64,000 bases of DNA, taken from positions 62,001-126,000 of the forward strand of contig NZ_QTXL01000001.1 in the NCBI RefSeq assembly GCF_003461625.1, written 5' to 3'. Positions within the stretch are counted from its first letter, which is position 1; the number at the start of each line of letters is the position of its first letter. This document shows, in pieces, positions 19,711 to 28,981 of this stretch. This DNA is from Clostridium sp. AF15-31 (GTDB taxonomy: Bacteria; Bacillota; Clostridia; Lachnospirales; Lachnospiraceae). The translations under genes and the position numbers were made by a program. Below the pieces are notes generated by a model. It was not told the DNA's origin. It was given only the letters and a program-made list of their open reading frames with translations, and made no database searches.

Positions 19711-22149
19711 CCCTGTATTAAAATATCCGTATTCCGTGTCCACATTATAGATTGCATAGCAGTCAAGTGCCTCCGGTATAGGCACACTGTAATAATGGAA
19801 ACCTAACCAACGCTGCATCCCTTCCGGCATATCTGCTGTCGGTGCTCCCGGCAGATAAACGGTAAATGTAGTGCCACCAGCAATTCCGTAAAGCTCTGTA
19901 AATGTAGTTATATGACCATTATCATTTGAAACTTCTTTTCCAATCTCATCATCATATGTAAAAGTATCCAACTCCATCGTATAGGTATATTTATCCACCT
20001 GTTCAATATTCTTAAATGTCCCGGAACCACTGGAAACTGAACTGCTTTCATAATTACTGTCATGGAAAGATGCCGTGAATGTTCCATCCGGCTTAATATT
20101 AATACCAGAAGCCCATGCTCCTACTCCGCTTGACATAGTAAAGCTCTCAGGCAGATCCTCCGGCAATGTCATTGCTACCTCTCCTGCATTTCCGGCAGAG
20201 ACTTCTTTCTTATCGGCAGATTTCTCCTGCTTTTTGTCAGATGCCGTTTTGTCCGTTTTTTTCTGTGTGATCTTTCCCAGATATTCCATAGCTTCATCAT
20301 AGGTCATGGCGGTATCATCCAGCGTACCAAGAACCTCCTTGGCTTTATCCTTGCCCTGGCCATTATACATTAACAAGGTATCAAAATTCTTCTGTAATTT
20401 CTTTACCTGCGTATCATACTTATCCTCTGATATCTCAGATCCATTCTTGGTACATGAAACAACCGTTGCCGAATAATCCTCATTTGGTCCTTCTTTTCTT
20501 GCCCAGGTTGTTGCTTTCTGAAGCATACCGGAATCATCTAATGCAAATTTGATATACTGATCCGTATATCCCTCATCTCCGATTCCACTATATGCATATA
20601 AGGTTCCCTTCTTAGTCGTAAACAGATAATAACTGGTTCCGGAAGCGGCATTTATATCCCAGCCACTATATTCTTCCATATCCGTTCCAAAGATTCTTTT
20701 TGCATTTGTTCCGTCAAAGCTATATATATCCATCTGCGCAATTGAAGCTTCGTTCTGTTCCGATCTTACCAGGATCATCTCCGGCACACCATCACCTGTA
20801 ACATCGGCAAATACGATCGGTGTCTGTTCCTCTTTTGCAGTCTTTGTGGAATAATCATATTCATACTGCCAGAAATAATTGTCGATCTGTGTCTTATAGG
20901 ATTCAAGTACCTCTTTGTATGCTGCTTTATAAAGACTTTCATCAATGGCTGCCTCTGTCGTTACCTCTGTTGGTTCTTCCGTTGTAACTTCAGTGGTTAC
21001 CTCTGCCTTTGTTGTCACCTCTGTTGTAACAGTATCATCACTTGCTTCCGAAGTGACTTCTGTTGTTGCATTCTGATCTTTCTTCTTATCCTGTGAGTGC
21101 TTATATGCAAATCCTGCTCCGACCGCACCTCCTACCAGGGCAACGGAAGCGGCTGCGATCACGATCTTGCCTGTTACCGTTTTTATAAATGCCTGTTTTC
21201 CAACTGTAGCTGCGATAGCCTTTCCGCCTTCTACTGCACCAACAGCCGATCCTGCGGCTCCTGCCTGAGTGACTCCTCCTGCTGCCTGTCCTGTGGCTCC
21301 TGCCTGTGCAGCTCCTCCTGCTACCTGTGCAGCCCCGCCTGTAACATTGCCTGCCATCTGCATAGCACCACCATGAATGATGCCGGCTGCAACATTTCCA
21401 CCAATGCCTGCCATCTGCTCAAATACATGCGTAACGATCATATTTCCACGTTCTGCCATAAGCAGATATACAAGAAGACACATCGGTGTGTAGCTGTAAA
21501 GCTTGTAGCCCTTCTTCTGAAGCTCCTCTGCCTTTGCCTTGATATTCTTACGTCCATAATTCAGTCTGGACTTTACGGTGTTCTCGGAACAGTTCAGTAC
21601 TGTGGCAATATCCTTGATACTGTAACCCTCCAGATGGAACATAAGCACACAGATTCTCTGTTCATCCGACAGGGAATCGATCAGCTCCCGCACCATATCC
21701 TGTGTCTCCTGCACGGTACATGCCATCTCCGGCTGTGTACTCATGTTTTCATCTTCCAGATTATACTCAAAGACATCCCCTTCATCATTTTCATTCTGCA
21801 GATCAGAAAACAAGACTGCCTTTTTCTTCTGAAGTGCATTGATCGCAGTATTTGCCACGATGGTACTCATCCATCCCGGAAATGCATTTGCATCCTGCAA
21901 ACTATCTAATCTGGCAAATGCCTTTATATAGGCATCCTGAAGGACATCCATTGCATCCTGCTCATTCTTCATATACTTCATTGCAATGTAGAGTTTATTC
22001 CGATATGTATTCTCATATAAGAACGTAAATCCTTCTTCACGCCCTGCCTTTGCCTGTTCCACTGCCTGTGTATAATCCACACAGCTTCCGCAAAACGGAC
22101 AGTTGTATTCATTCCCCTGTAAATCATTTCCACATGTTCTGCACTTCAT
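19702..22149 (-). CDS. Membrane-tethered ECF-type sigma factor with zinc ribbon and extracellular domain
   Basis: 815 residues, a fusion. Residues 1-25 are a zinc ribbon (CRTCGN...CPFCG). Residues 36-115 are sigma region 2 (TYRNKLYIAMKYMKNEQDAM, FPGWMSTIVANTAIN). Residues 165-215 are sigma region 4 with HTH (LSDEQRICVLMFHLEGYSI, CSENTVKSRLNYGRK). A Gly/Ala-rich stretch follows, then one TM helix near residue 325-350 (GKIVIAAASVALVGGAVGAG), a Thr/Glu/Val-rich stalk and an extracellular part with an FADVTGDGVPEMI motif like FG-GAP/calcium loops. The C-terminal 120 residues look like a separate beta-rich module. GGAGGAG precedes the start. An ECF-type promoter lies upstream of the preceding small gene, implying autoregulation. 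Confidence 0.85.
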   Translation of the reverse strand: MKCRTCGNDLQGNEYNCPFCGSCVDYTQAVEQAKAGREEGFTFLYENTYRNKLYIAMKYMKNEQDAMDVLQDAYIKAFARLDSLQDANAFPGWMSTIVANTAINALQKKKAVLFSDLQNENDEGDVFEYNLEDENMSTQPEMACTVQETQDMVRELIDSLSDEQRICVLMFHLEGYSIKDIATVLNCSENTVKSRLNYGRKNIKAKAEELQKKGYKLYSYTPMCLLVYLLMAERGNMIVTHVFEQMAGIGGNVAAGIIHGGAMQMAGNVTGGAAQVAGGAAQAGATGQAAGGVTQAGAAGSAVGAVEGGKAIAATVGKQAFIKTVTGKIVIAAASVALVGGAVGAGFAYKHSQDKKKDQNATTEVTSEASDDTVTTEVTTKAEVTTEVTTEEPTEVTTEAAIDESLYKAAYKEVLESYKTQIDNYFWQYEYDYSTKTAKEEQTPIVFADVTGDGVPEMILVRSEQNEASIAQMDIYSFDGTNAKRIFGTDMEEYSGWDINAASGTSYYLFTTKKGTLYAYSGIGDEGYTDQYIKFALDDSGMLQKATTWARKEGPNEDYSATVVSCTKNGSEISEDKYDTQVKKLQKNFDTLLMYNGQGKDKAKEVLGTLDDTAMTYDEAMEYLGKITQKKTDKTASDKKQEKSADKKEVSAGNAGEVAMTLPEDLPESFTMSSGVGAWASGINIKPDGTFTASFHDSNYESSSVSSGSGTFKNIEQVDKYTYTMELDTFTYDDEIGKEVSNDNGHITTFTELYGIAGGTTFTVYLPGAPTADMPEGMQRWLGFHYYSVPIPEALDCYAIYNVDTEYGYFNTGLQ

Positions 22150-22214: not shown

Positions 22215-22343
22215 TTATCTGGACTGCCTGTCATGCTCGATCCGGTCAAATAATTCTTTCTTGCGTTCCGGATCGTCCGGCAGCTCCTTTCGTTCTTTTC
22301 TTAACAATGCAACAAACGCGCGCACTGCCTTCCACACATCCAT
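22215..22343 (-). CDS. 42-residue small protein ahead of the ECF sigma gene
   Basis: ATG at 22343 has a near-perfect AGGAGGTG 7 nt upstream. The encoded peptide begins MDVWKAVRAFVALLRKERK, is highly charged (many Lys/Arg/Glu/Asp) and has one amphipathic helix but no clear TM segment. It is 65 bp upstream of the sigma gene, in the same direction and immediately downstream of the ECF-like promoter, so the two are probably cotranscribed. It could modulate the sigma factor; that is inference only. No family recognised. Confidence 0.6.
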   Translation of the reverse strand: MDVWKAVRAFVALLRKERKELPDDPERKKELFDRIEHDRQSR

Positions 22344-22365: not shown

Positions 22366-22391
22366 GACAGATCAGGTGGGTAAAAAGTTTT
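22366..22391 (-). promoter_or_regulatory. ECF-type promoter, copy 1 (sigma operon)
   Basis: The minus strand reads AAAACTTTTT (22391-22382) and TGTC (22369-22366), with 17 nt between AAC and TGTC. This matches the AAC / CGTC-like architecture of ECF sigma promoters. The same motif occurs at 24039-24015 and 28860-28836. The predicted leader to the 42-residue gene is only about 15 nt. Confidence 0.6.
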
Positions 22392-22452
22392 AAGTTTTTG
22401 GATATTTTTTGCTTTATTATAGCATACCACAAAATCAGGATAACATTATATT

Positions 22453-23541
22453 CTATTTCTTTATCTTTACAGTCTTATATTTGCTCCATGCAGAGTAACA
22501 TTTCTTCTCGCGGGAACCTGCCTTTACATAAGAACGGACACGGACATAATAAGTCTTGCCCTTTTTCAGATCCCAGAATGTACAGTTATTGTAATTCTTA
22601 AATGGCGCATCATATACTTTCTTATTCTTTTTGAATTTCTTATCCGTTGCGATCTGGATCTGATATCCGGTCGCCTTGCTCTTGCACTTCCATGTTACCT
22701 TTAACTTTCCGGATGAAAGATTCTTTACCTTGCTTACAGTGGTCTTCGGAACATCTGTAAATGTCGTCTTAAATGTATACATTCCGGCATAATTTGGATC
22801 AACACTATATGGCCAGCCTTTGGTCATCGTGATGTAGTAGGTTCCCTTTGGCAGGAAAAACGTGTATTTTCTGGTTCCCGGTGTAACCCCTGTCTGAATA
22901 TAGTGAATATCGCCATTTGTATTCTCGATCACAACATTCATTTCCTTGATCTTGCTGTTGATCTGAATGTTCATGTACCGGTTCTTTGTCATCTTCATCT
23001 TATAGATATCTTTTGTCTCGTTAAATGCAAACTGTCCTTTATAGGTCGTACCTGCCTTATAGGTAAATGCCATCGTTTTCTCATCGTTCTGTGACAGCCA
23101 TGACTCGGAACGTGTCTCGCCGGATGCCTTATAAGATGCCGTAAATGTGAACTTGCAGCCGGTATAAAAGCCTGCACACAGAGATAATTTATAATCACCT
23201 GCTAATAATTCTGCCTTATAGCTGCCATTTCCTTCACTGACTGATGCTGTATAGATCTCATTATCATACATATCGCTGACTTTTATATAATTAAGCCCGG
23301 TATGTGTCTTTCCAATTCCCTCCGTCACAATCGCAAGAGAAAATGTACCGGATTTCTTCATCGTAAATGTATACTCATATGTATTCTGTGCATCCTCCAA
23401 CTCGCCACTGTAACTCTGTCCCCATACGATCTGCTGTGGACTGTTTAACACCTCTGCGGATACCTTTCGCGCAGGACTTACTGCACACATCATCACCATT
23501 AAAATTACTGCTAACATGATCTGTTTCATTTTTCTACTCAT
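22453..23541 (-). CDS. Secreted protein with FnIII-like C-terminus (paralog A)
   Basis: 362 residues. An N-terminal signal peptide (basic MSRKMKQ, hydrophobic IMLAVILMVMMCAV, cleavage after KVSA) is followed by two beta-rich modules of about 100 residues that resemble pre-peptidase-type sandwiches (EYTFTMKKSGTFSLAI; IYKMKMTKNRYMNIQI). The C-terminal about 95 residues are a fibronectin type III-like domain (KVTWKCKSKATGYQIQIATD, TYYVRVRSYVKAG). No sortase signal is seen. It lies 30 bp after the small membrane protein gene and shares its ECF-type promoter. Paralogous to the gene at 27659-28738 across its length. Extracellular function unknown. Confidence 0.75.
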   Translation of the reverse strand: MSRKMKQIMLAVILMVMMCAVSPARKVSAEVLNSPQQIVWGQSYSGELEDAQNTYEYTFTMKKSGTFSLAIVTEGIGKTHTGLNYIKVSDMYDNEIYTASVSEGNGSYKAELLAGDYKLSLCAGFYTGCKFTFTASYKASGETRSESWLSQNDEKTMAFTYKAGTTYKGQFAFNETKDIYKMKMTKNRYMNIQINSKIKEMNVVIENTNGDIHYIQTGVTPGTRKYTFFLPKGTYYITMTKGWPYSVDPNYAGMYTFKTTFTDVPKTTVSKVKNLSSGKLKVTWKCKSKATGYQIQIATDKKFKKNKKVYDAPFKNYNNCTFWDLKKGKTYYVRVRSYVKAGSREKKCYSAWSKYKTVKIKK

Positions 23542-23571
23542 AATAATCTGTCCTCTCTTTCTACCTTCTTT

Positions 23572-23925
23572 TTATTCAACTGTTTCAGCATCCATCATCT
23601 GCTCTTTGTATGCCTTACGGATCGGGATGATCGGCAGTCCGATAAATACCATGATCGAGATGAAGAAGGATACCACACCGGTAACAATATCATACGGAAA
23701 TGGTACGATGAGCCAGCCCCATTTGGCGATCTTGCCTGCCATCTTTACCGCAGTTCCAAATCCACCAAAGAAATAGGAAACAATGCCTGCCATAACTCCA
23801 TACCCCATCATAGACATCGGGATCCTGCCACCAAAAATACCGGAAAGGACAAATCCTAAAACGGTTAAACAGGTTGCTCCCAATGCGATGTACTGTGCGA
23901 TTTCGATTCTTCTCATTTTCTTCAT
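23572..23925 (-). CDS. Small multi-pass membrane protein
   Basis: 117 residues with three or four hydrophobic segments: IAQYIALGATCLTVLGFVLS, then MGYGVMAGIVSYFFGGF and IVTGVVSFFISIMVFIGL. N- and C-termini are charged. I chose the ATG at 23925 with AAGGAG upstream; the longer frame to 24030 has no ribosome binding site and runs across the promoter. It is the first gene of an operon with the secreted protein gene, behind ECF-type promoter copy 2. No family recognised; a possible anti-sigma or envelope-stress partner is speculative. Confidence 0.65.
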   Translation of the reverse strand: MKKMRRIEIAQYIALGATCLTVLGFVLSGIFGGRIPMSMMGYGVMAGIVSYFFGGFGTAVKMAGKIAKWGWLIVPFPYDIVTGVVSFFISIMVFIGLPIIPIRKAYKEQMMDAETVE

Positions 23926-24014
23926 TTTTTTATTCTCCTTTTCTTTATCCGAGGAGCATTTCATCCGGAAATTCATCCATAAAAAATGCAACCTCTGTAT
24001 CGTTTCACCTATAT

Positions 24015-24039
24015 GACACAGAGGTTGCAAAAAAGTTTT
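24015..24039 (-). promoter_or_regulatory. ECF-type promoter, copy 2 (membrane/secreted protein operon)
   Basis: The minus strand reads AAAACTTTTTT from 24039 and TGTC at 24018-24015, with 16 nt between AAC and TGTC, then ATATAGG. About 90 nt of leader precede the start at 23925. It is nested in the 137-bp gap after the DUF4143 ATPase gene. Confidence 0.6.
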
Positions 24040-24062
24040 ATATTTTTTGAAATTTTTTTAAA

Positions 24063-25340
24063 TTAATTTTTTAATGCTGTAATCGGCACAACATATACGC
24101 CATCCGGTCGTTTATATGCTGCATTAGACAAACCACAAATAACACACAATATTTTTGCAGGCTTTCCTTTGGGATCTTTTTCAATCTTTTTGTTTATATC
24201 TAATAAACTCTTCGCAGCGTCATCAATCTGATTTGCACCTAATTTAATTTCAAATGCGCACCATTCACCATTACTAAGTTCAACAACTGCATCTATTTCT
24301 TTATTATCATAATCCTGATAATGATATAATGAGGCACCAAACGATTCTGCATATATTTTCAAATCTCGTTCACAAAGAGATTCGAATAAAAATCCAAGTG
24401 TTTGCAGGTCATTGACCAACATCTCCGGTGTCGCATTCAACAAAGCGCAGGCAAGAGAAGGATCACAAAAATGCCGTTTCTCCGCTTGCTTTATTCTAAC
24501 AGATGATCGGATATTTGTTGAAAATGGCATTTGATTATCTATAATAAAAAGTCGTTTGAATATATCCAGATAATCAGCAATAGTATCCTTATCAAGATCA
24601 GTATCATCCATTTCTTTCACATCTCTTGCAAGTGAAGTATTGGTAACTGTAGTTGCTTCGTTTCTCGCCAAAGATCGAAGTAACAGTTTCATTTTCTCCT
24701 TATTACGTTTTACACCATCTATTCTATATACATCATCGTCAATTATGGCATCAATATATTGAATTGGCAAAAGTGCTGCCTGTTCAACAGGTATGTCTAT
24801 ATTACCAGGCCATCCTCCCCGAATAATATACTTAATTAAGTTTTGCAGATTTACTTCACCAGTCATAACCGGAATTATATTATCATTACATAACTCTTTT
24901 AATGAAATTTCGCCAGAGGAATCACCAGATTCGTAAAGGGACATTGGATGCATCTTTATTCTTGCAATTCTTCCTGCACCACTATGCATGATTCCCTTAT
25001 GATTAGGAGTTGCCGATCCTGTTAATATAAACTGTCCCTTTTCTCCTGTTTGATCAACCTTATATCTAACTGCATCCCATAACGGCGGAACTTCCTGCCA
25101 TTCATCAATTAATCTTGGCTTGTCACCATTCAATACCAAATCCGGCGACATTTGTGCCAGCGTTCTATTTTGAAAATTACCTGCAGGATCTCCCATATAA
25201 ATTTCACTATTACTATGGTAAGAAGAAGTCCATGTTTTACCACACCACTTTGGTCCTTCTATACATACAGCACCAAAGCTCTCCAAAAATTGTTCAATTC
25301 TATTATCAATTATTCTTGTTTTATAAGCATCTTTTATCAT
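24063..25340 (-). CDS. DUF4143-type AAA ATPase (paralog 1)
   Basis: 425 residues. N-terminal P-loop EGPKWCGKTWTS near residue 24-35, Walker B LIDEWQEVPPLWDAV, sensor LTGSATPNH, then a DUF4143-like C-terminal half with a PD-(D/E)XK-like signature (YHYQDYDNKEIDAVVELSNG, CAFEIKLG). This family is widespread and accessory, with unproven function. I chose the ATG at 25340, preceded by GAGGTGA; the ORF extension to 25463 is the reading of a 23-bp DNA repeat array and not protein. A distant paralog lies at 60354-61577. Base composition is more AT-rich than its neighbours, fitting acquisition. Confidence 0.85.
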   Translation of the reverse strand: MIKDAYKTRIIDNRIEQFLESFGAVCIEGPKWCGKTWTSSYHSNSEIYMGDPAGNFQNRTLAQMSPDLVLNGDKPRLIDEWQEVPPLWDAVRYKVDQTGEKGQFILTGSATPNHKGIMHSGAGRIARIKMHPMSLYESGDSSGEISLKELCNDNIIPVMTGEVNLQNLIKYIIRGGWPGNIDIPVEQAALLPIQYIDAIIDDDVYRIDGVKRNKEKMKLLLRSLARNEATTVTNTSLARDVKEMDDTDLDKDTIADYLDIFKRLFIIDNQMPFSTNIRSSVRIKQAEKRHFCDPSLACALLNATPEMLVNDLQTLGFLFESLCERDLKIYAESFGASLYHYQDYDNKEIDAVVELSNGEWCAFEIKLGANQIDDAAKSLLDINKKIEKDPKGKPAKILCVICGLSNAAYKRPDGVYVVPITALKN

Positions 25341-25365
25341 ATTTTTATTATCACCTCTAATACGG

Positions 25366-25394
25366 ATTATATACCAATCGGAGAGTTTTGGGAA
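25366..25394 (-). promoter_or_regulatory. Promoter of the DUF4143 ATPase gene
   Basis: The minus strand reads TTCCCA (25394-25389), a 17-nt spacer, TATAAT (25371-25366). The consensus -10 is followed after 26 nt by the ATG. The -35 and spacer fall inside the first 23-bp repeat unit, so a protein on the repeats would touch RNA polymerase directly. Confidence 0.55.
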
Positions 25395-25485
25395 GTATAA
25401 TCGGAGAGTTTCGTAGTTTTCAACCGGAGAGATTCCGGAAATATAATCGGAGAGATTCGGCATTTTCAGTCGGAGAGTTTTTCCC
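25376..25485. repeat. Five 23-bp direct repeats upstream of the ATPase gene
   Basis: The core TCGGAGAG (once CCGGAGAG) starts at 25378, 25401, 25424, 25447 and 25470, exactly 23 bp apart, each followed by T/A-rich and partly conserved bases (ATATAA or TTTTCA at the unit end). A 23-bp period is not a multiple of three, so this is DNA-level repetition. The array covers the -35 region of the ATPase promoter and runs about 90 bp upstream, as cooperative binding sites would. Confidence 0.8.
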
Positions 25486-25498
25486 TTATAAAGTAAAA

Positions 25499-25535
25499 AT
25501 GCCTTCGACTGATTCTTAAAAAACAGCCGAAGGCA
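25499..25535 (-). terminator. Terminator of the second ECF sigma gene
   Basis: The minus strand forms TGCCTTCGGCTG/CAGTCGAAGGCA around an A/T-rich loop, followed by TTTTTACTTT. It lies just after the stop of the sigma gene at 25549 and insulates the repeat-controlled ATPase promoter. Confidence 0.75.
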
Positions 25536-25548
25536 CTCTAATAATTTT

Positions 25549-27330
25549 TTATTTATTCTTTTTTAAATATTTCAATGCATTTGCATAGGACATTTCACAT
25601 CCGTCACTTGCTCCTCCTAAATTTCGAGCTGCCATTATATTTCCTGACGAATCCCTGTTAATATTTGCCAACTGATCATATATGCCATTAGGAGCTGTCG
25701 CCGCCATGTTCTTCAGAACCTCACTATCCACTTCTTGATATATTTCGTCGCGTTTTGTCTGATATTCTTCCCATGCCACAGATATACCGTCCCGTTCTGC
25801 AAGCAGTGCTGTTTCTTCATCCCCCACTTGTTCTGCATGACAGGTCCAGACAATCGGCTGCAGATAATCTCCACTAGATGAAGCCACATCGAATTCTACA
25901 ATCTTATCTACGACCCCAATCTCCGTATCATCACTCTGTCCATCACTGCAAAGTATGTACATCCGGCATCCATTTTCTGAAGCTTCTCTAGTGCAAACTA
26001 ATACATATGGTGTTCCTTCTGCTCCCCATTTGTCCCGGTTCTCATCTGACCTTGTATCAAGTTCTCCACTATAAACCTGTACTGCTTCATTATCTATATA
26101 TGTATATATATGAAGATCCGCTTTATTCGGATCTGATTCATCCTGTGCCGCAAAGATCAGTTCAGGAGTATCATCTCCCATAATATCAGCAACAGTAATC
26201 GCTCTGGCTTCTCCTACCAGGATCGGTTCGTTCTCCCGCATCTGCGAAGTCTGCCATCCATAATCCTGAATTTCCTGTCTATATTCCTTCAGCACCTCTG
26301 TATACGCATCCTGCCAGGTGTTCTGGTTGTGATTGTATATTGCTACACCGGCTGCTCCTCCTGCTACTGCCACTCCGGCTGCCGCCATTGTGATTTTTCC
26401 TGCTACTGTTTTCAAGAAGGTCTGTTTTGCCGCTGTAGCTGCTGCCGTCTTGCCTCCTGCGGCTGCACCTGTTCCGACTGCCGATCCGGTAGCCCCGGTC
26501 GCTCCAGCTGTGACTGTACTTCCCGCAGCAGATAACGCACCTGCTGCTCCACCATGGATCAGTCCGGCACCGACTACACTTCCAACACCTGCCAGCTTGT
26601 CGAAGGTTCCTGCTACCAGCATAGTTCCTCGTTCTGCCATGAGCAGATAGGTAAGAAGTGCCATAGGTGTGTAGCTGTACAGCTTGTAGCCCTTCTTCTG
26701 AAGCTCCTCTGCCTTTGCCTTGATATTCTTACGTCCATAATTCAGTCTGGACTTTACTGTATTCTCTGAACATCCAAGAACTGTCGCAATATCTTTTATG
26801 CTGTATCCTTCAATATGGAACATCAGCACACACATTCTCTGCTCATCCGACAATGAACCGATCAGTTCCTGTACCATTTCCTGCGTTTCTTTCGTTGTAC
26901 ATGCCATCTCCGGCTGGGCTGTCATGTTCTCATCTGCGATCGAATATTCAAATGCCTCCCCATCCTGATCTTCTCTCTGCATATCCGAAAAATTCACTGT
27001 ATGGCGGTCTCGCAATGTATTCCTTGCGGTATTTGCAACAATGGTACTGAGCCATCCCGGAAATGAATTTGCATCCTGAAGACCGGAAAGCCGCTCAAAT
27101 GCTTTCACATAGGAATCATGGAGAACATCCATTGCTTCATCCTCATTCTTCATATATTTCATCGCAATATACAGTTTATTCCGATATGTCATCTCATACA
27201 GATAGGAAAAGCCTGCTTCCTTTCCTGCTTTTGCCTGCTCCACCGCCTCTGTATAATCAACTGCTGCCCCACAGAACGGACAGTTATATTCATTTCCCTG
27301 CAGATCATTCCCACATGTTTTGCAAATCAT
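25549..27330 (-). CDS. Membrane-tethered ECF-type sigma factor (paralog 2)
   Basis: About 593 residues with the same architecture as the 19702-22149 gene: zinc ribbon (CKTCGN, CPFCG), sigma2 (TYRNKLYIAMKYMKNEDEAM), sigma4 HTH (LSDEQRMCVLMFHIEGYSI, CSENTVKSRLNYGRK, identical in the recognition helix), a Gly/Ala/Thr-rich linker, one TM near residues 320-345 (GKITMAAAGVAVAGGAAGVA), and a shorter extracellular domain with VADIMGDDTPELIF. The Thr/Val/Glu stalk of paralog 1 is missing. The ATG at 27330 is preceded by GGGAGG; the upstream ATG at 27360 lacks one. No ECF-type motif is visible upstream of this gene, unlike paralog 1. Confidence 0.85.
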   Translation of the reverse strand: MICKTCGNDLQGNEYNCPFCGAAVDYTEAVEQAKAGKEAGFSYLYEMTYRNKLYIAMKYMKNEDEAMDVLHDSYVKAFERLSGLQDANSFPGWLSTIVANTARNTLRDRHTVNFSDMQREDQDGEAFEYSIADENMTAQPEMACTTKETQEMVQELIGSLSDEQRMCVLMFHIEGYSIKDIATVLGCSENTVKSRLNYGRKNIKAKAEELQKKGYKLYSYTPMALLTYLLMAERGTMLVAGTFDKLAGVGSVVGAGLIHGGAAGALSAAGSTVTAGATGATGSAVGTGAAAGGKTAAATAAKQTFLKTVAGKITMAAAGVAVAGGAAGVAIYNHNQNTWQDAYTEVLKEYRQEIQDYGWQTSQMRENEPILVGEARAITVADIMGDDTPELIFAAQDESDPNKADLHIYTYIDNEAVQVYSGELDTRSDENRDKWGAEGTPYVLVCTREASENGCRMYILCSDGQSDDTEIGVVDKIVEFDVASSSGDYLQPIVWTCHAEQVGDEETALLAERDGISVAWEEYQTKRDEIYQEVDSEVLKNMAATAPNGIYDQLANINRDSSGNIMAARNLGGASDGCEMSYANALKYLKKNK

Positions 27331-27405
27331 TTGTAGCCTCCCACACGCCTGTTTTTTCATTTTTGTATACTTTTAATAGAAATATGTCAGATCCGTTTTC
27401 TCTGT

Positions 27406-27588
27406 TTAGCCTATTATAGCCTTTACTGTACTAACATCCAGATTTGTTATCTCGACAATCTGATCCAAAGAATAGCCTTTCTTATGCATATTTAGTACAA
27501 TCTCTCCAGATTTCATTGTAACGTAGTTCACAGGGGATAGCAAGATGAAGAAAATAAAGGCCAAAAAACTGACATACGGATCAGGCAT
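27406..27588 (-). pseudogene. Possible C-terminal remnant of an Rpn-like protein
   Basis: A 60-codon frame whose last 36 residues (MKSGEIVLNMHKKGYSLDQI, then VEITNLDVSTVKAIIG) resemble the C-terminal helix-turn tail found on many Rpn/PD-(D/E)XK transposase-like proteins. The front half is shared with the terminator hairpin and has no ribosome binding site. Read as a decayed fragment; weakly supported. Confidence 0.35.
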
Positions 27589-27628
27589 CTTTTCTTCCGA
27601 AAATATGATGATCCATATGTCAGTTTTT
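27563..27628 (-). terminator. Long hairpin terminator after secreted paralog B
   Basis: AAAAACTGACATACGGATCA and its near-complement ending TATGTCAGTTTTT flank a 25-nt loop, with T-runs on both sides. It lies 30 bp beyond the stop of the 27659-28738 gene. Confidence 0.75.
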
Positions 27629-27658
27629 GTACTTATTTATGTAGGGTTGTATTTATTA

Positions 27659-28738
27659 TTATTTAATCTTAACAGTCTTAACCTTACTCCAAGAAGAATA
27701 ATAATATTCATCCGGAGTACTACCATAATTATCAATCTTCACATAAGAACGAACACGAACATAATATGTTCCTTTTTTCAAATCAACCATATACATTCCT
27801 GTATATTCATCCTGCTTTGTCTTTTTGCCCTTTTTAAACTTTCTGTCTCTTGCAATCTGGAACTGATAGCCATTTGCCAATGAATTTTTCTTACACCGTA
27901 TATACATCGTCTTATACTTATTATCCGGTTTTGTTTTAGTAATAGTTGGCTTTGGTATTGCAGTTACAGAAGTTCTAAAGGAATACTTACCTGTATAATG
28001 ATAGTCCGTTGCATAATTTACACCACCTCTGAACTTGACATAATATGTACCCTTTGGTAAAAATACTCTGTATTTATGAAGTCCCGCTTCAATATCTGAT
28101 ATACTAACATTCCGACTGCCACTTGTGTTTACCAAATTAATGTTCAGTTCACGGAGCTTACTAGATACCGTCAGATTCAGATACTGACTTTTTGTTACTC
28201 TCATCTTATAAATATCTATATCATCATTCAACGCTAACTGTCCTTTTACAGATTTACCAATCTTATAAGAGGTTGCTGTTCCCATCTCATTATTCTTTGC
28301 CATTGCACGCTCGGACTTCGTTTCCTTAGATGACTTAAATGATGGTGTAAATGTAAAATTACAACCATCCATACCATCTTCCATGCCTATTCTTAATGTA
28401 TAATTACCTGCCAGCAAATCCAGCGATAAACTACAATCTCCCACATTATCAATCCTGTATACTTCTTTTCCTGTTTCGTCCAAAACTGTTATTTCATCCA
28501 TACTGGTAAATGCATATCCAGCATCCGATACCTGAAATACAAAGGTGACATTTCCGGATTGTTTCAAAGAAAATGCATATTTATAACATTTACTTACATT
28601 TATACTTCCACTATACGTACTGCCCCATTTCAGTTTTGTTTCTGCTGCAGACACCTTCTGCACCGGTACTGCCAGCATAACGAATGCTGCTGCCAGCATT
28701 ACAATTAACCCTTTCCATAAGCTCTTGTTTTTCATCAT
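27659..28738 (-). CDS. Secreted protein with FnIII-like C-terminus (paralog B)
   Basis: About 359 residues, clearly paralogous to 22453-23541. Signal peptide (KNKSLWKGLIVMLAAAFVML, cleavage after KVSA), two beta-rich modules (YAFSLKQSGNVTFVFQ; IYKMRVTKSQYLNLTV) and a C-terminal FnIII-like domain (SLANGYQFQIARDRKFKKG, TYYVRVRSYVKID). I chose the ATG at 28738 with AAGGAG 7 nt upstream; the ORF's first ATG overlaps that ribosome binding site. ECF-type promoter copy 3 lies about 100 nt upstream. It ends before the second sigma gene, so each sigma gene is paired with one secreted paralog. Confidence 0.75.
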   Translation of the reverse strand: MMKNKSLWKGLIVMLAAAFVMLAVPVQKVSAAETKLKWGSTYSGSINVSKCYKYAFSLKQSGNVTFVFQVSDAGYAFTSMDEITVLDETGKEVYRIDNVGDCSLSLDLLAGNYTLRIGMEDGMDGCNFTFTPSFKSSKETKSERAMAKNNEMGTATSYKIGKSVKGQLALNDDIDIYKMRVTKSQYLNLTVSSKLRELNINLVNTSGSRNVSISDIEAGLHKYRVFLPKGTYYVKFRGGVNYATDYHYTGKYSFRTSVTAIPKPTITKTKPDNKYKTMYIRCKKNSLANGYQFQIARDRKFKKGKKTKQDEYTGMYMVDLKKGTYYVRVRSYVKIDNYGSTPDEYYYSSWSKVKTVKIK

Positions 28739-28835
28739 TCTTCTTCTCCTTTTCATTTTTGTGATATTTTTATATTACAATAAATATTTACAGATGCAAG
28801 AGAAATATTTTATTTTCCTGCCTTCTACTATATAA

Positions 28836-28860
28836 GACAGGGGCAAATGGAAAAAGGTTT
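28836..28860 (-). promoter_or_regulatory. ECF-type promoter, copy 3 (secreted paralog B)
   Basis: The minus strand reads AAACCTTTTT (28860-28851) and TGTC (28839-28836), with 17 nt between AAC and TGTC, then TTATATAG. It shares the -10 extension TATAG with copy 2. It sits between the surface-protein terminator and the secreted gene. Confidence 0.6.
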
Positions 28861-28924
28861 TAAAGTTTTCAAATTTTTTAAAAATTTTTTTCACCTTGAC
28901 TCATACTGTCCAGATAAAACGAAA

Positions 28925-28959
28925 ACGCCGTCTGTAATATTCCTACCACAAACGGCGTC
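28925..28959 (-). terminator. Terminator of the large surface protein gene
   Basis: ACGCCGT and ACGGCGT pair around a 20-nt loop; on the minus strand TTTTCGTTTT follows. It lies 23 bp past the stop of the 28982-34720 gene. Confidence 0.7.
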
Positions 28960-28981
28960 CTTTGCTTTTACTGTTATTTTG

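Follow-up and report, generated by a model that had tools for sequence, protein, structure and literature searches.

What reads the motif that recurs on the minus strand of a 64,000-nucleotide (nt) stretch of the genome of Clostridium sp. AF15-31 (contig NZ_QTXL01000001.1, positions 62,001 to 126,000; this whole stretch is called the window below)? An earlier interpretation made from the letters alone (the sequence-only reading) saw in three copies of it the promoters of a candidate regulon controlled by an extracytoplasmic function (ECF) sigma factor. Two sigma factors, sigma 1 and sigma 2, each with a predicted transmembrane segment, are encoded beside these copies. We propose, with a probability of about 0.84 and on the strength of sequence comparison, that the three sites are promoters read by these neighbouring membrane-anchored ECF sigma factors.

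Three candidate promoters and two membrane-anchored sigma factors

A pattern scan of the window recovered all three sites where the sequence-only reading had placed them (Table 1), except that site 3 is better read as AAAACCTTTTT, beginning at 28861. Realigned in this way the three sites share AAAAC-[TC]TTTT...TGTC, with the T-tract directly after AAAAC or AAAACC. The gap from AAAAC to TGTC is 17, 16 and 17 nt at sites 1, 2 and 3, and hence the 16-17 nt spacing claimed earlier holds for this measure, but it fails when counted from the end of the 10-mer, where the gap is 12, 11 and 11 nt. An AAC-type -35 and a (C/T)GTC-type -10 element 16-17 nt apart constitute the geometry of an ECF promoter, and the earlier assignment of the sites to this class stands both in the window and, as described below, in other genera. 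The gene positions likewise agree with what had been said to follow the sites, namely the 42-amino acid (aa) open reading frame (ORF) and sigma 1 at site 1, the 117-aa membrane protein and secreted protein A at site 2, and secreted protein B at site 3. Between the end of site 1 and the ATG of the 42-aa ORF there are 22 nt, so a start 7-8 nt past TGTC would give a short leader with a ribosome-binding site.

The pattern proposed at the outset, AAAMYTTTTT-N10-13-TGTC (the broad pattern, which permits 15-18 nt from AAAAC to TGTC), occurs at no further place in the 64 kb, its four hits including two that overlap at site 2, and it has a mean of 0.01 and a maximum of 1 occurrence in 200 dinucleotide-preserving shuffles of the window. 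A tight pattern, AAAAC-N-TTTT-N11/12-TGTC, finds the three sites and nothing else, compared with 0 in 200 shuffles. Since a bare AAAC-N16/17-TGTC is not unusual in the window (5 observed, 3.73 expected), the signal sits in AAAAC, the T-tract and TGTC at fixed spacing.

Both sigma 1 and sigma 2 match Pfam PF04542 (region 2) and PF08281 (region 4) above cut-off, no region 3 is listed for either at E <= 0.1 in the Pfam scan, and NCBIfam TIGR02937 for sigma is also above cut-off; the combination of sigma2 and sigma4 without sigma3 is that of the ECF (group IV) factors. The N-terminus is Cys-rich (C-x2-C...C-x2-C) in both, and a long C-terminal part follows one hydrophobic segment, which is predicted to span the membrane and is present at the corresponding place in 17/17 homologs examined as well as in both window copies. 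Of the 7991 candidates scored in a protein search, 1532 are similar at E <= 1e-20 and of about the same length. An alignment of 37 sequences has a conserved segment right after sigma4 (L217, P222 and L229 are invariant) and a conserved G-K pair that opens the membrane segment, with a variable linker between them. In comparisons by 50-aa block, identity between the two sigmas is 56-88% within the first 250 residues and 6-28% in the outer part, and because the two copies share a DNA-reading head and differ in the outer domain, two inputs may feed one regulon. Sigma 2 lies behind a strong terminator-like hairpin, and pattern scans of the window found no promoter site of this type upstream of it.

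In an AlphaFold model of sigma 1 residues 1-360 (mean pLDDT 62.8, pTM 0.36), sigma2 and sigma4 are confident and the linker is disordered, and hence autoinhibitory docking of the linker on the sigma cannot be claimed. A known anti-sigma domain was not recognised after sigma4 in sigma 1 or sigma 2 by Pfam scan and alignment, nor was an anti-sigma family among the seven proteins scanned with Pfam (both sigmas plus five neighbouring proteins); the 42-aa peptide and the 117-aa membrane protein, both unassigned, could be unrecognised regulators. The linker of sigma 1 contains a 39-bp tandem repeat (21250-21328), and against its counterpart in the near relative G001 the protein is 98-100% identical per block over the first 250 residues and 48-98% in the linker and outer part.

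Conservation in other genera and the TGTC/CGTC split

Relatives were traced with the sigma because matches to secreted protein A were mostly to its fn3 domain. Those matches (37/150 genomes at E <= 1e-3) led us to reject protein A as a guide; among the matches listed it is near full-length only in G001 and G003, and a contig scan with it gave 16 loci, nearly all covering the C-terminal part only, which were set aside. The motif was not found upstream of the G003 relative, and the closest sigma in that genome is distant (31%). When residues 1-243 of the sigma were used to query 397 genomes of the family, 21 genomes matched at E <= 1e-40, and from these the ortholog set was drawn, comprising 13 loci in 12 genomes (151.8 kb) with G001 and sigmas at 42% identity or less left out.

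The broad pattern, applied unchanged to these 13 loci, gives nine matches, every one on the sigma strand, compared with a mean of 0.1 and a maximum of 1 in 30 shuffles, and this is how the conservation in relatives, suggested as a check by the sequence-only reading, turned out. Seven matches stand before the sigma or its operon leader (G027, G381, G417, G363, G332, G318 and G130), the other two stand before the next two genes in G363, and the AAAAC-TGTC spacing is 17 nt in all nine, though 15 to 18 were permitted. G036 has a slightly looser site ahead of a leader gene for a 117-aa lipoprotein, which is 68% identical to the leader product of G381 from the same genus. The TGTC site is thus present at 8 of the 12 testable ortholog loci (7 genera), with CGTC at one and none found at three; the locus in G353 is untestable as its contig starts 131 nt before the sigma. 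Gene order suggests the operon link to the sigma in G417, G381, G036 and G130. A site upstream of the sigma gene or operon is therefore conserved among orthologs, and this conservation lends support to autoregulation and to control of neighbouring envelope genes, in line with the earlier proposal of autoregulation plus control of the two secreted paralogs.

Across 13 whole genomes, TAAAAC-N-TTT-N12/13-TGTC has 20 matches, of which 13 are at sigma loci, and 9 of the 13 genomes have any. The genome-wide scan that had been suggested thus gave a divided answer, in that the number of matches does not exceed a reversed-pattern control but their placement at sigma loci does stand out, and as it is placement rather than number that exceeds the control, the regulon looks small. 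The seven matches off the sigma loci include two inside coding sequence (G001 2547151 and G130 C74), three that precede a same-strand gene (G001 2810087, G381 C179 and G036 949269) and two ambiguous ones in G381 (C140, with the next ORF of at least 50 aa 750 nt downstream, and C115, with no ORF seen). In G036 the site at 949269 lies 171 kb away from the sigma, and the gene behind it encodes a membrane protein homologous (28% identity, E 5e-22) to that encoded behind the second site of G363, a genome of another genus in which this site is beside the sigma. A lipoprotein pair follows a site in G154, and its second member shares 57% identity with the lipoprotein encoded after the third site of G363; a close sigma was not found in this 79%-complete genome, the best being 39%. 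As homologous genes in different genomes carry the site, it appears to be kept by targets as well as by the sigma.

Aligned together, 19 sites (3 from the window and 16 from relatives) give TAAAACTTTTT...ccTGTCt.A. The spacer is 17 in 18 sites and 16 in site 2, a uniformity that comes partly from selection since most sites were picked by patterns permitting only 16 or 17. This alignment excludes the three G001 copies, coding or antisense matches and one G353 match in a hairpin 6.8 kb past the sigma, and it retains the two ambiguous G381 matches.

A more distant group of sigmas with this layout (11 loci, 137 kb) carries AAACC-N16-CGTC in place of the TGTC motif. Its eight matches there are without exception on the sigma strand (shuffles give a mean of 0.77 and a maximum of 3), while the broad pattern has two, both on the strand opposite the sigma, and a CGTC-type site lies upstream of the sigma at 5/11 loci. 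The type of -10 is accompanied by one position in region 2.4, which is N in 9/9 TGTC sigmas and D in 5/6 CGTC sigmas (Fisher p 0.002, which is no true probability because the sequences share kinship); the tally leaves out sigmas to which no site was assigned (N in sigma 2, in G353 and in the two G189 sigmas, R in G138). This position seems to correspond to the D of the DXXR motif of Tt-RpoE1, which mutation showed to be important for -10 recognition, although in Tt-RpoE1 this residue contacts -12G and not -13, and altering -13 made little difference (PMC3397946). The TGTC/CGTC split offers a natural series in which to study how ECF sigma factors choose their -10. Related membrane-anchored sigmas (L070, L071, L073, L118 and L119) have their own AAAC...CGTCTAGG-type upstream motif, which in L119 includes CGTCTGG.

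The near relative G001 (2.96 Mb) has the tight pattern four times, at the three orthologous sites and at 2810088. The fourth site precedes four consecutive genes (364, 734, 631 and 282 aa) with secreted-looking N-termini, and the third of these has an fn3-like stretch (24.3 bits against a Pfam cut-off of 25) that is 52% identical to the fn3 of secreted protein A. Between this fourth site (L068 5089-5114) and the gene there is also a sigma-A-like promoter (TTGACA, 16 nt, TATAAT). The copies of the three window sites differ by 2 substitutions in 77 nt, both in the spacer (one in site 1 and one in site 3, with site 2 identical), and G001 is only weak independent evidence because it is nearly identical over the sites and much of the locus.

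Alternative readings and the hairpin at site 2

The sites might be ECF promoters read by a different ECF sigma of the same cell, with the local sigma genes as mere targets. The related genomes do offer candidates (sigma-like proteins unconfirmed as ECF, numbering 12 to 35 in eight of nine matching genomes and 4 in the ninth), and sigma 2 has no site of its own; against this, the site accompanies orthologous sigmas across several genera and the -10 type tracks the sigma subgroup at the region-2.4 position, and we regard this explanation as unlikely. That the sites are chance matches in AT-rich DNA, with housekeeping sigma-A promoters driving the genes, is highly improbable. The upstream DNA is indeed rich in homopolymers, a possible extended -10 is found immediately upstream of site 1 and genome-wide match numbers are not above control, but the shuffles of the window never produce the tight pattern, the site is kept before the sigma in other genera, and the listed sigma-70-type matches include no strong one shortly before any of the three sites on their strand, the nearest, at site 3, being 9/12.

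Site 2 raises a separate question as it overlaps an inverted repeat. The 15-nt arms (23987-24001 and 24015-24029) are 93% complementary with a fold of -27.7 kcal/mol (z -5.4), and the -10 of site 2 falls within the 5' arm. Site 2 could hence be only the terminator hairpin of the upstream unit and not a promoter, a view to which the ATTTTTT that follows the stable fold on the minus strand and the odd spacer (16) lend something. However, such a hairpin leaves TATAAAACTTTTTT, outside the stem, unexplained, the next gene begins 90 nt downstream of the site, and the motif is independent of a hairpin of this kind as the other 18 aligned sites fold far more weakly (-1.2 to -13.9 kcal/mol in a 50-nt window round TGTC, compared with -24.7 at site 2), all of which makes this view quite improbable. 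Weaker hairpins across TGTC, which is then partly or wholly paired, do occur at some sites, including site 1 and that of G027. Under the promoter reading, a start 7-8 nt past TGTC lies in the loop, so that site-2 transcripts would hold one arm and escape termination, and the hairpin would stop transcription that reads through from sigma 2.

Several observations weigh against the proposal that the local sigmas read the three sites. The TGTC of site 2, being in a hairpin stem, could be conserved for another reason. At the ortholog loci, G294 has AAAC-N17-CGTC at -169 and not TGTC, and no site was found at either G189 locus or at G138 among the 12 testable loci. Numbers alone do not favour the proposal either: the 20 matches in the 13 whole genomes compare with 24 for the reversed-pattern control, and only placement stands out; in G001, which is too near the window for an independent test, the tight pattern occurs 4 times against 3 for that control, and hence the match number there says little. 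The tight pattern is missing in 2 of the 5 genomes of the genus of G001, and in the genus without G001 it has 4 matches against 7 in the control (3 against 1 in G154 alone), of which only G154 C12 precedes a gene, for a lipoprotein, the other three being inside or antisense to ORFs. With one mismatch allowed, G001 has 36 matches, forward and reverse, compared with 96 for the reversed control. Such loosening was rejected as a means of finding targets as it returned background only (36 against 92 in G154 and 42 against 134 in G027).

The locus, its likely wiring and known systems

Table 1. Features of the window discussed in the text
Feature	Positions	Strand	Description
Sigma 1, 815 aa	19702..22149	minus	Cys-rich zinc-ribbon-like N-terminus, ECF sigma2 and sigma4, K-L-Y...P...L segment, hydrophobic segment 321-339, outer domain
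42-aa ORF	22215..22343	minus	first gene behind site 1
Site 1, putative ECF-type promoter AAAAC-N17-TGTC	22366..22391	minus	reads AAAACTTTTT-ACCCACCTGATC-TGTC
Possible extended -10 (TGCTATAAT)	22416..22424	minus	candidate basal sigma-A promoter upstream of site 1; consensus match only
Secreted protein A, 362 aa	22453..23541	minus	signal-peptide-like N-terminus, beta-strand-rich domains, C-terminal fn3
117-aa membrane protein	23572..23925	minus	behind site 2
Inverted repeat around site 2	23987..24029	minus	RNA hairpin, then AUUUUUU; predicted start in loop
Site 2, putative ECF-type promoter AAAAC-N16-TGTC	24015..24039	minus	reads AAAACTTTTT-TGCAACCTCTG-TGTC
Sigma 2, 593 aa counted from second ATG	25549..27330	minus	layout as sigma 1
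Stretch with terminator-like hairpin separating secreted protein B from sigma 2	27555..27632	minus	-33.4 kcal/mol, z -7.6; 3' arm ends in U-run
Secreted protein B, 365 aa	27659..28756	minus	41% identity to secreted protein A
Site 3, putative ECF-type promoter AAAAC-N17-TGTC	28836..28861	minus	found as AAACCTTTTT-CCATTTGCCCC-TGTC from 28860
Terminator-like hairpin after upstream 1912-aa gene	28922..28961	minus	insulates site 3

On the minus strand the upstream part of the locus runs from the hairpin after the 1912-aa gene through site 3, secreted protein B, the strong hairpin and a 60-aa ORF to sigma 2, and the downstream part from an AAA/DUF4143 gene through site 2, the 117-aa membrane protein, secreted protein A, site 1 and the 42-aa ORF to sigma 1. 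As secreted proteins A and B are similar to each other (Table 1), and likewise the N-terminal parts of the two sigmas, the unit of secreted protein and sigma looks like a tandem duplication. The 42-aa ORF has no Pfam or NCBIfam match at E <= 0.1. The extended -10 upstream of site 1, which was read by eye and is absent from the listed sigma-70-type promoter matches, could be a source of basal expression. An AlphaFold model of secreted protein A (mean pLDDT 90.4) has only generic beta-sandwich and fn3 likeness to structures in the PDB, the best being 5iku (collagen-binding domains; TM 0.25/0.37), and no function was drawn from it.

The 60-aa ORF before sigma 2 (27406-27588) is probably a gene remnant; its C-terminal 32 residues match a 62-aa ORF of G001 with one difference. 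A 23-bp repeat (AATCGGAGAGTTT...) occurs in four to five copies at 25375-25489, where the AAA/DUF4143 gene starts; G001 lacks most of that gene. Secreted protein B is 40-76% identical per 50-aa block to its G001 counterpart, and the DNA before it differs at 1 of 26 positions in the site, 4 of 119 upstream and 8 of 79 in the leader. This divergence of the coding part beside little-changed upstream DNA suggests that the coding part changed fast or was exchanged.

In the mechanism that we propose, the transmembrane segment of sigma 1 would keep this factor tethered to the membrane, and because region 4.2 is nearly identical in the two, sigma 2 probably behaves likewise. A signal at the outer domain would free or expose the sigma2-sigma4 part, most likely by proteolysis, and RNA polymerase with the freed sigma would start at AAAAC-N17-TGTC. 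The output would be more sigma 1 from site 1, the small membrane protein and secreted protein A from site 2 and secreted protein B from site 3, and in G001 the fourth, unlinked site would add a secreted-protein operon. Directly observed are the sites, how rare they are, where they lie and that other genera keep them before orthologous sigmas; we infer the reading of the sites by the sigma, its proteolytic release, the nature of the signal and the sharing of the sites by both copies.

In sequence, the sigma2 and sigma4 parts are related to SigW, SigM, SigX and SigV of Bacillus subtilis (NCBIfam matches; SigW structure 5wuq), and none of the 25 best NCBIfam matches listed reaches an equivalog cut-off. 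The promoters of these four factors have an AAC-type -35, a GTC-type -10 and a T-tract, and the factors themselves are soluble with separate anti-sigma proteins. Tt-RpoE1 of Thermoanaerobacter tengcongensis is similar in being an autoregulated ECF sigma whose own promoter, tGTTAC-N16-CGTC, has AC at the end of the -35 and a -10 of the GTC type, with self-activation shown in vitro (PMC3397946). The anti-sigma of Tt-RpoE1 is the product of the downstream Tt-tolB gene (PMC3397946). In contrast, the window sites have a TGTC -10 and a -35 of AAAAC with a T-tract, and no separate anti-sigma gene was recognised among the proteins scanned at the window locus. The single chain of sigma, transmembrane segment and outer domain is shared with IutY (ECF243) and with ECF48/52/53 of Actinobacteria, described as sigma factors with a C-terminal membrane-bound extension (PMC8999054). 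The window sigmas differ from these in that their Cys-rich zinc-ribbon-like part is N-terminal and the part behind sigma4 gave no recognised match to a known anti-sigma domain. The hosts also differ, the window family being Lachnospiraceae-like while IutY is from Pseudomonas putida and ECF48/52/53 are from Actinobacteria. Proteolytic release is the characterised route for IutY (PMC8999054), and by analogy the membrane-held sigma would most likely be freed by a signal.

ECF autoregulation is already known, and the sensor-fused form with its paired promoter in Lachnospiraceae is a variant of it; no description of the sensor-fused family or its motif was found in the openly licensed literature searched. 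We offer tentatively, at somewhat less than even odds, the wider picture that in gut Lachnospiraceae one protein carries a signal from the outside to transcription by means of an outer domain, one helix and an ECF sigma with its own promoter, TAAAACTTTTT-N12-TGTC, that the two outer domains of the duplicated gene drive the same promoter set, and that one promoter is nested in a terminator, its transcripts starting in the loop and escaping while upstream read-through stops. For what appears to be an uncharacterised family of membrane-anchored sigmas in gut-type bacteria, the analysis offers a testable promoter, a set of targets and a likely wiring, and as the site and the sigma can be paired across genera, the regulon would be testable with one reporter strain and one truncated sigma.

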